A stretch of DNA of 20,032 nt from a virus. The DNA lies in IMG/VR virus record IMGVR_UViG_3300032081_000312, positions 1 to 20,032 of that record, one strand, 5' to 3'. The notes under the pieces are model-generated. The model had not been told where the DNA came from. It ran no database searches and saw nothing but the letters and a program-made list of their open reading frames with translations. Of this stretch, positions 3,367 to 4,677 are shown piece after piece. The translations under genes and the position numbers were made by a program. Each line of letters begins with the position of its first letter. Position 1 is the first letter of the stretch.

Positions 3367-4281
3367 ATGGCTATTTCACGCGCACAATTAGCGAAAGAGC
3401 TAGAACCAGGCCTCAACGCTTTGTTCGGTATGGAGTACTCTCGGTACGAAAACCAACACGCTGAGATTTATACAACAGAATCTTCCGATCGAGCATTCGA
3501 AGAAGAAGTGATGTTGTCTGGATTTGGCGCAGCACCAACCAAATCGGAAGGTTCTGCAATTAACTTTGACGACGCTAACGAAGCATACACTGCTCGTTAC
3601 AACCACGAAACAGTAGCGTTGGCATTCTCTATCACAGAGGAAGCAGTCGAAGACAATCTTTATGATCGTCTTGGTTCACGTTATACTCGTGCTTTGGCTC
3701 GTTCAATGGCTCACTCAAAGCAAGTTAAGGCTGCTGCAGTTCTTAACAACGCATTTACTGCCGGCGCAACTGCTGGTGGTGACGGTGTTGCTTTGTGTGC
3801 AACTGACCACCCACTTACTTCGGGCGGAACGTTTGCCAACGAACCATCAGTAGCTGCAGATTTGAACGAAACATCTCTTGAAGATGCTTTGATCAACATC
3901 GCAGGTTTTGTTGATGAGCGTGGTCTTAAAGTCGCATTACGCGGCATGAAGTTGATCCTTCCACGTCAACTGCAATTTGTTGCAGAGCGTTTGATGGTTT
4001 CCAACTTGCGTGTTGGTACAGCGGACAATGATACAAACGCACTGCGTTCAATGGGTATGTTGCCTAACGGTTATGCCGTTAACGACTTCCTCACTGATCC
4101 AGACGCGTTTTTCATCCTGACAGACGCACCTCGTGGGTTCATCCACTTTGAGCGCACACCGATGTCAACCGGCATGGAAGCCGATTTTGACACAGGTAAC
4201 ATGCGCTTTAAGGCTCGTGAACGCTACAGCTTCGGCTTTAGTGATCCACGTGCTGTATTTGGTTCTCCGGGCGCAGCGTAA
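3367..4281 (+). CDS. Major capsid protein, Mu gpT-like HK97-fold
   Basis: 304-aa shell subunit. The N-terminal arm ELEPGLNALFGMEY (11-24) leads to a segment with FEEEVMLSGFGAAPTKSEG, then the core with YNHETVALAFSITEEAVEDN and LGSRYTRALARSMAHSKQVK; further on come PRQLQFVAERLM and the C-terminal part with MRFKARERYSFGFSDPRAVF. This order matches the Mu major-head-subunit (gpT) type of HK97-fold capsid proteins that is very common in marine phage genomes. It assembles on the scaffold into the icosahedral prohead. Length is normal for the family. I see no N-terminal delta domain. High expression is expected: full Shine-Dalgarno upstream and a strong terminator directly downstream. Confidence 0.92.
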   Translation: MAISRAQLAKELEPGLNALFGMEYSRYENQHAEIYTTESSDRAFEEEVMLSGFGAAPTKSEGSAINFDDANEAYTARYNHETVALAFSITEEAVEDNLYDRLGSRYTRALARSMAHSKQVKAAAVLNNAFTAGATAGGDGVALCATDHPLTSGGTFANEPSVAADLNETSLEDALINIAGFVDERGLKVALRGMKLILPRQLQFVAERLMVSNLRVGTADNDTNALRSMGMLPNGYAVNDFLTDPDAFFILTDAPRGFIHFERTPMSTGMEADFDTGNMRFKARERYSFGFSDPRAVFGSPGAA

Positions 4282-4303
4282 GTTTGCACTCATCACCAAA
4301 GTT

Positions 4304-4340
4304 AAGGGGCGGTCTTCGGATCGCCTCTTTCTTTTTATTT
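4304..4340 (+). terminator. Rho-independent terminator after the capsid gene
   Basis: An 11-bp stem (two G-U pairs), 4304-4314 with 4319-4329, is capped by the very stable TTCG tetraloop and followed by a T-rich tract ending at 4340. It lies 23 bases after the MCP stop and would end the head-gene transcript, or reduce read-through into the neck and tail genes. Confidence 0.9.
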
Positions 4341-4343
4341 AGA

Positions 4344-4441
4344 CCTAGTATATTCTGTTGCCACTAGGGCAAACATCAGCTTTGTAGACAGGTTTCCGCC
4401 CTCCTGACGTTGCATAGACTACAAAGCGAATCCTTATGCAA
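4344..4441 (+). promoter_or_regulatory. Candidate structured 5' leader RNA (interlocking inverted repeats)
   Basis: The 171-bp gap 4282-4452 is the largest non-coding stretch. After the terminator it holds four perfect inverted repeats: CCTAGT/ACTAGG (4344-4349, 4363-4368), AGGGC/GCCCT (4366-4370, 4398-4402), GCTTTGTAG/CTACAAAGC (4379-4387, 4419-4427) and TTGCATA/TATGCAA (4410-4416, 4435-4441). The 9-bp pair joins the loop of the second to the loop of the fourth, a pseudoknot or kissing-loop layout; the first and second exclude each other. The last arm touches the ribosome site AAGGG (4441-4445) of the gene at 4453. Seen: the repeats. Inferred: a folded leader that controls translation. I match it to no known riboswitch, and see no convincing promoter; TATATT at 4349-4354 lacks a good -35. 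Confidence 0.45.
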
Positions 4442-4452
4442 AGGGTACTAAA

Positions 4453-4677
4453 ATGGCTTCAACTACATTTTCAGGTCCAGTGACCTCAACCGCTGGTTTT
4501 GTTGGCGACATCAAAGTTCCAACCTATACTGTTGCTTCTGCTCCTTCCGCCGCTACTGCAGGCGCAGGTACACTTGTTTATGTTTCTAACGGTGCGGCTG
4601 GTTCACCTATTTTGGCCTTCTCTGACGGGACCGATTGGAAGCGTTCTGATACAGGTGCCACAATCGCAGCGGCATAG
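4453..4677 (+). CDS. Small beta-rich virion-type protein
   Basis: 74-aa protein, rich in Ala, Thr, Ser and Gly. It begins MASTTFSGPVTSTAGFVG and carries GTLVYVSNGAAGSPILAFSD, then GTDWKRSDTGATI. This 'GTLVYVSNGAxGxPxxAFSDGTxWxRxDTG' string also occurs at tail-fibre ends and in small structural proteins of marine phages, where it looks like a trimerising or capping beta motif; that role is an inference. It is the first gene after the terminator and structured leader. Start supported by AAGGG at 4441-4445, seven bases upstream. Confidence 0.75.
   Translation: MASTTFSGPVTSTAGFVGDIKVPTYTVASAPSAATAGAGTLVYVSNGAAGSPILAFSDGTDWKRSDTGATIAAA

Follow-up and report, generated by a model that had tools for sequence, protein, structure and literature searches.

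What does the DNA between the capsid gene and its downstream neighbor encode, and which gene does it serve? The stretch analyzed here is a virus record of 20,032 bases (hereafter, the window), in which a gap at 4282–4452 separates the major capsid gene from a gene specifying a protein of 74 amino acids. A first-pass annotation of this gap noticed four interlocking inverted repeats and proposed an RNA switch in front of neck and tail genes. Comparison with related phages, which are mostly metagenomic and which supply all of our evidence, indicates that the gap element is a real, conserved double-pseudoknot RNA. That comparison establishes its fold, its location, its link to a single gene family, and its overlap with the ribosome site. 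The family is that of putative capsid cement proteins, and the RNA probably governs their translation.

Architecture of the leader RNA

All features described here lie on the plus strand. The gene encoding the major capsid protein (3367–4281; PF25209, with weak similarity to Mu gpT) is followed by a Rho-independent terminator at 4306–4338, recognizable by direct reading from its stem (4306–4314 with 4319–4327), TTCG loop, and T-run. Terminator hairpins of variable sequence occupy the same site in most relatives. As first proposed, the RNA element lies directly 3′ of this terminator and adjoins the ribosome site for the gene that starts at 4453. Between terminator and RNA, TATTCT (4351–4356) is a short consensus match to a −10 box. 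Among 248 distinct leaders, TANNNT is enriched 32–42 nt upstream of the core A described below, and the commonest spacing, which the window shares, places the end of the −10 box 9 nt before the first RNA strand, PKa. Transcription is predicted to start at about 4362–4366. Given the order of terminator, −10 box, and RNA, the RNA should form the 5′ end of an mRNA and, given the 9-nt spacing, PKa should be the first part of the transcript.

The 5′ half of the common plan consists of the PKa 5′ strand, P1, an A, the P2 hairpin with the PKa 3′ strand in its loop, ACG, and the PKb 5′ strand. The 3′ half continues with AGA, the returning strand of P1, a linker, the P3 stem with a 6-nt loop that is the PKb 3′ strand, the Shine–Dalgarno sequence, and ATG. 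Specifically, in the window, PKa pairs AGGGC (4366–4370) with GCCCT (4398–4402), the latter lying inside the P2 loop. P1 pairs GCTTTGTAG (4379–4387) with CTACAAAGC (4419–4427). An unpaired A at 4388, invariant in alignment A2, separates P1 from P2, which joins CAGG (4389–4392) to CCTG (4403–4406). The alignment also reveals a conserved unpaired ACG (4407–4409) and a conserved AGA (4416–4418) before the P1 3′ strand. PKb pairs TTGCATA (4410–4416) with TATGCAA (4435–4441), the last six bases of which are the P3 loop. Finally, the P3 5′ strand CCTT (4432–4435) is an anti-Shine–Dalgarno sequence; its partner, 4442–4445, belongs to the Shine–Dalgarno sequence AAAGGG (4440–4445) of the 74-residue gene (4453–4677), the protein of which begins MASTTFSGPVTSTAGF.

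Support for these helices comes from a covariation test of our own implementation, in the manner of R-scape. Sequences were aligned with MAFFT without structural information, a tree was built with FastTree, substitutions were re-placed along the tree to give 40 null alignments, and column pairs were scored by an APC-corrected G-test. Among all column pairs, 12 reach E < 0.05 in this tree-aware test, and all 12 fall within the proposed helices: eight in P1, one in P2 (37–46), two in PKb (51–82 and 55–78), and one in P3 (76–83). A second analysis used 36 diverse sequences, in which 92% of cells pair, versus 66% after shuffling and 27–42% when strands are slid, and in which 285 double changes occur versus 92 expected. 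For the AT-rich pelagiphage class, a dedicated pair counter shows the same picture.

The helices also stand up individually. With no fitting, each of the nine P1 positions is paired in 85–98% of distinct leaders, versus 40–92% (mostly 40–57%) with shuffled partners, and up to four Watson–Crick types occur per position; the pairing test, covariation, and column-pair changes agree on this helix. P2 is supported by covariation and by column-pair changes (AU 20, CG 8, and UA 8 in the 36-sequence set). A complete PKb occurs in 82% of the distinct leaders versus 15% with foreign strands; the clear misses are loci of the RNA Mu-gpT-DE, considered below. At the first PKb pair, AU, UA, CG, and GC all occur. 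One set of leaders was defined by a pattern and chosen partly on PKb bases, so for PKb it is the protein-defined sets that carry weight. PKa aligns poorly for the tree-aware test because its spacing varies. Its support is a helix-length comparison (at least 5 bp is reached by 89% of distinct leaders and, with the loops of other loci, by 38%), together with column-pair changes in the 36-sequence set and the AT-rich class. P3 occurs as CTC:GAG, CTT:AAG, CCTT:AAGG, and GTG:CAC, and its covariation is modest because the Shine–Dalgarno sequence constrains one strand.

How do the original inverted repeats map onto this fold? All four, checked base by base, are present and perfect. The 9-bp repeat is P1 and the 7-bp repeat is PKb; their interlocking is real and constitutes an H-type pseudoknot. 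Compensatory change in related phages, which the first-pass annotation had set as its refutation test, is massive in both. Comparison does not retain the 6-bp repeat (CCTAGT, 4344–4349, with ACTAGG, 4363–4368) or the 5-bp repeat (TTGCC, 4358–4362, with GGCAA, 4368–4372) as conserved helices. Both run into the −10 region, on the 5′ side of where the transcript probably starts, and with the 6-bp stem goes the alternative state ascribed to it. P2 and the second pseudoknot, PKa, were absent from the original description. The other proposed test, folding energy against shuffled sequence, is uninformative for a pseudoknot: the nested minimum free energy is ordinary (−27.7 versus a shuffled mean of −26.1; z −0.49), and it would have overlooked this fold because pseudoknots are not modeled. 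We also considered an alternative hairpin of the PKa strand, P0, as a conserved switch. It was rejected, since hairpins of at least 4 bp are only weakly above control both in type 2 leaders (47% versus 32%) and in type 1 leaders (16% versus 12%).

Distribution and the adjoining gene

Several hundred IMG/VR contigs contain the double-pseudoknot RNA. IMG/VR contains hundreds of proteins related to the 74-residue protein, and, of the best 80, only a few are without a recognizable version of the leader. Three further cement proteins, employed as queries with no use of the RNA, added more loci. Under a strict automatic rule, the four protein-defined sets have the RNA at 77 of 78 (set A), 62 of 80, 43 of 78, and 78 of 78 (set E) usable loci. 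The 18 failures in the second set show the motif by eye, L271 excepted, and the distinct ones that were run matched the covariance model; most failures in the third set carry Mu-gpT-DE. The real exceptions seen are L052, L305, and the truncated L271. In the last (1380–1500), PKa, the P1 5′ strand, and P2 are missing while the PKb 3′ strand, P3, and the gene are kept, an arrangement reflecting either a natural deletion or an assembly error. Upstream of 1501 in L305 and of 2501 in L052, the same cement gene families occur with no double-pseudoknot RNA, and L052 has a different hairpin, CCTC/GAGG, over its Shine–Dalgarno sequence.

The covariance model R1, built from the 36 diverse sequences, finds the window at 58.9 bits (E 1.6e-11), a score to be read knowing that the window is itself in the model. 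R1 gives one strong match per recognized phage record, at the leader only, with the next best match at 18.1 bits. It does not recognize the AT-rich class (HTVC027P and 023Pt_psg01); an alignment of that class alone served to place it. A blast search with the RNA against annotated phages returned zero matches because the RNA sequence diverges too fast; annotated phages were reached instead through the capsid and cement proteins. Among named phages, the RNA is borne by the cultured pelagiphages HTVC023P and HTVC027P (host of both, Pelagibacter HTCC1062), by 023Pt_psg01, and by DSL-LC04. Many freshwater phages have it too, as does the metagenomic genome MW202675, which is complete. In HTVC027P (MN698241), ACTGTATA lies ~90 nt before gp62. 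In DSL-LC04, the gene after the RNA is annotated as encoding a cement protein.

The identity of the adjoining gene is the constant feature. The 3′ end of the leader always coincides with the ribosome-binding site of a gene from a single family, marked by a TTFSGPV N-terminal arm. The RNA tracks this family rather than the neck and tail genes first named as its target. The genes are modular: an arm, MAxTTFSGPVxSxNGF or ..AGxIxNT, is joined to unrelated C-terminal domains of ~70–240 residues, with the same leader RNA throughout (L084, L095, L097, L124, L160, L185, and others, as well as the window at 4453–4677). A pattern scan for diverged versions likewise returned matches upstream of MAxTTFSGPV genes with very different C-terminal parts, along with an occasional chance match in coding DNA. 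A constraint at the RNA level on the TTFSGP codons was considered and rejected: synonymous sites vary freely, and it is therefore the protein sequence of the tag that is conserved.

Structure prediction for a sister family of 151 residues is compatible with capsid cement proteins in which an arm stays constant and outer domains are exchanged. It was used to examine an Ig-like cement fold of the Pam1/KHP30/GP4 type: the AlphaFold2 model has moderate confidence (pLDDT 65), and the best three PDB matches in Foldseek are the capsids of Pam1, KHP30, and GP4 (E 8.6e-5 to 6.4e-4, TM about 0.5), falling on the cement chains as judged by length. We infer that the 74-residue window protein, a family member with the constant N-terminal arm, is likewise a cement protein.

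Relationship to Mu-gpT-DE and other RNAs

In a gathering scan with Rfam 15, no family reaches its cutoff, whether in the window or at 16 related (type 2) loci, and at E up to 10 most of the low-score matches in the gap fall on the terminator and resemble chance hits. The window element has zero Rfam families, in keeping with the initial impression that it resembled no known riboswitch. Given the absent Rfam match, we regard the window RNA as previously uncatalogued, while a report elsewhere in the literature is possible.

The closest counterpart is Mu-gpT-DE (RF03012), reportedly described in a 2017 survey. We find it at L314, L317, L322, L324, L328, and L336 and in phages CRP-901 and CRP-902. 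Like the window RNA, it lies between a gpT-like capsid gene and a TTFSGP cement gene in sister phages, displays the order P1, A, P2 hairpin, AC, loop, AGA, P1 return strand, and ends on the Shine–Dalgarno sequence. Unlike the window RNA, it is 53 nt long and lacks both PKa and PKb. Its P1 3′ strand is itself the Shine–Dalgarno sequence (CCUG/CAGG), whereas P1 of the window lies away from that site. The RF03012 model has no match in the record at its 49-bit threshold or in the gap at E up to 10, and R1 in turn matches neither the Mu-gpT-DE loci nor phages CRP-901/902. Because core and place are shared but the pseudoknots are not, and because the models are mutually blind, we place the window RNA outside RF03012 itself, as a larger and novel variant allied to that known motif, to which no function is assigned. 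Every element that defines the larger class (P1, A, P2, ACG, PKb, AGA, PKa, a Shine–Dalgarno sequence at the PKb end, and a TTFSGP gene) is present in the window. Mu-gpT-DE looks like a reduced form of the double-pseudoknot leader; common descent is likely, not proved.

More distant parallels exist. The mRNA leader of T4 gene 32, which encodes a single-strand DNA-binding protein, contains a pseudoknot used in autogenous translational control. It too is a 5′ pseudoknot in the mRNA of a phage gene, before that gene's own ribosome site, but it is a single H-type pseudoknot farther from the Shine–Dalgarno sequence, and we do not claim homology. SAM-II and preQ1-II are pseudoknotted translational riboswitches in which, as in the window, the pseudoknot abuts or includes the Shine–Dalgarno sequence. 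Neither, however, has a match in the gap at E up to 10, and the window's target gene is structural, not metabolic.

Probable control of cement protein synthesis

We consider it probable that the RNA is a cis-acting leader that controls translation of the cement gene, its fold sequestering the Shine–Dalgarno sequence. A separate late mRNA would begin at the promoter past the capsid terminator, with the gap encoding its structured 5′ leader. The first bases of the transcript, the PKa 5′ strand, would dock into the P2 hairpin loop, inside the long helix P1, and the PKb strand from the P1 loop would pair with the bases at the ribosome site that form the P3 loop. With the Shine–Dalgarno sequence as the 3′ side of P3, the folded leader would keep that site closed, and unfolding would admit ribosomes. 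The leader would thereby determine when cement (decoration) protein is made, and how much of it, in relation to capsid protein.

The placement of the ribosome site is consistent with this proposal. Of 202 distinct leaders, 195 have a Shine–Dalgarno sequence that abuts or overlaps the PKb 3′ end. The main class closes this sequence with P3 and PKb, the AT-rich class lays PKb directly over AGGAGG, and in Mu-gpT-DE the sequence is the P1 3′ strand. That three lineages with a common core close this site in different ways is an argument for translational control. We infer that folding lowers initiation; a structure ending at the Shine–Dalgarno sequence could instead help initiation or protect the 5′ end. 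Protection, in its fuller form, would make the RNA a stabilizer or nuclease block that preserves an abundant late mRNA with no regulated switching. The fold does begin a few bases from the predicted transcript start, where a pseudoknot would pin the 5′ end. Such a role is nonetheless unlikely, as it leaves unexplained both the constant end of the 3′ half on the Shine–Dalgarno sequence and the different stems that close it in three lineages.

Somewhat less likely again is a metabolite riboswitch, with a small molecule bound at the conserved junction and a pseudoknot closing the ribosome site. Translational pseudoknot riboswitches have conserved unpaired bases beside the Shine–Dalgarno sequence, and a compact double pseudoknot with a near-invariant unpaired A, ACG, and AGA in that position would suit one. 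However, the RNA precedes one structural gene family alone and never a metabolic gene, and it matches zero Rfam riboswitches. Its bacterial distribution is also against the idea. When 369 genomes sampled from one bacterial class were searched with the covariance model, a single one had it: the seed metagenome-assembled genome (MAG), where the same gene lies on the contig concerned. A pattern search of bacterial genomes yielded 118 matches, nearly all chance occurrences in GC-rich genes; the two real ones both precede MASTTFS genes on MAG contigs.

Rfam types RF03012 as an sRNA, and that label, together with the head-module location, could suggest a trans-acting or structural small RNA, perhaps for head assembly. 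We judge this very improbable: no terminator lies between the RNA and the start codon, with the PKb end 8–16 nt from ATG in the leaders measured, and the RNA follows the cement gene, not the capsid gene. Specifically, it is absent where a related capsid gene has a different next gene (QDWS535, Caulobacter phage RW, and several Manatee Spring phages). The larger relative offered here for Mu-gpT-DE suggests, rather, that the Rfam "sRNA" is a leader at the ribosome site. Palindromes close to a promoter might also be protein operators in DNA, or chance, but this is refuted by crossing helices that all have compensatory changes, significant against a tree-aware null.

If translation is what the leader controls, what is the trigger? 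Our leading guess, ranked above a metabolite, is autogenous control by cement or capsid protein. It is possible, and we offer it tentatively, that free cement protein or a capsid component binds the conserved A/ACG/AGA core. More speculative still is an RNA assembly sensor: unassembled cement or capsid protein would bind the core, lock the double pseudoknot, and stop cement translation, in a superfamily of which Mu-gpT-DE would be a reduced member. If so, an RNA sensor of assembly would set head-protein stoichiometry in some of the most abundant phages in the sea.

HTVC023P-type pelagiphages are reported to account for ~7.6% of viromic reads, and RNA-seq of HTVC027P infection of HTCC1062 is published (PMC12753301). 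An RNA class with very strong covariation and no Rfam match resides in these pelagiphages and in many freshwater phages. The gene it would control can be named: it specifies a capsid cement protein in which the anchoring arm is constant and the outer domains are exchangeable. Cultured hosts together with the published infection RNA-seq make the mechanism directly testable. Finally, just upstream of the head module, the window carries a co-chaperonin-like gene (Cpn10, PF00166; 846–1328), and a GroES gene likewise precedes the head genes of HTVC027P.
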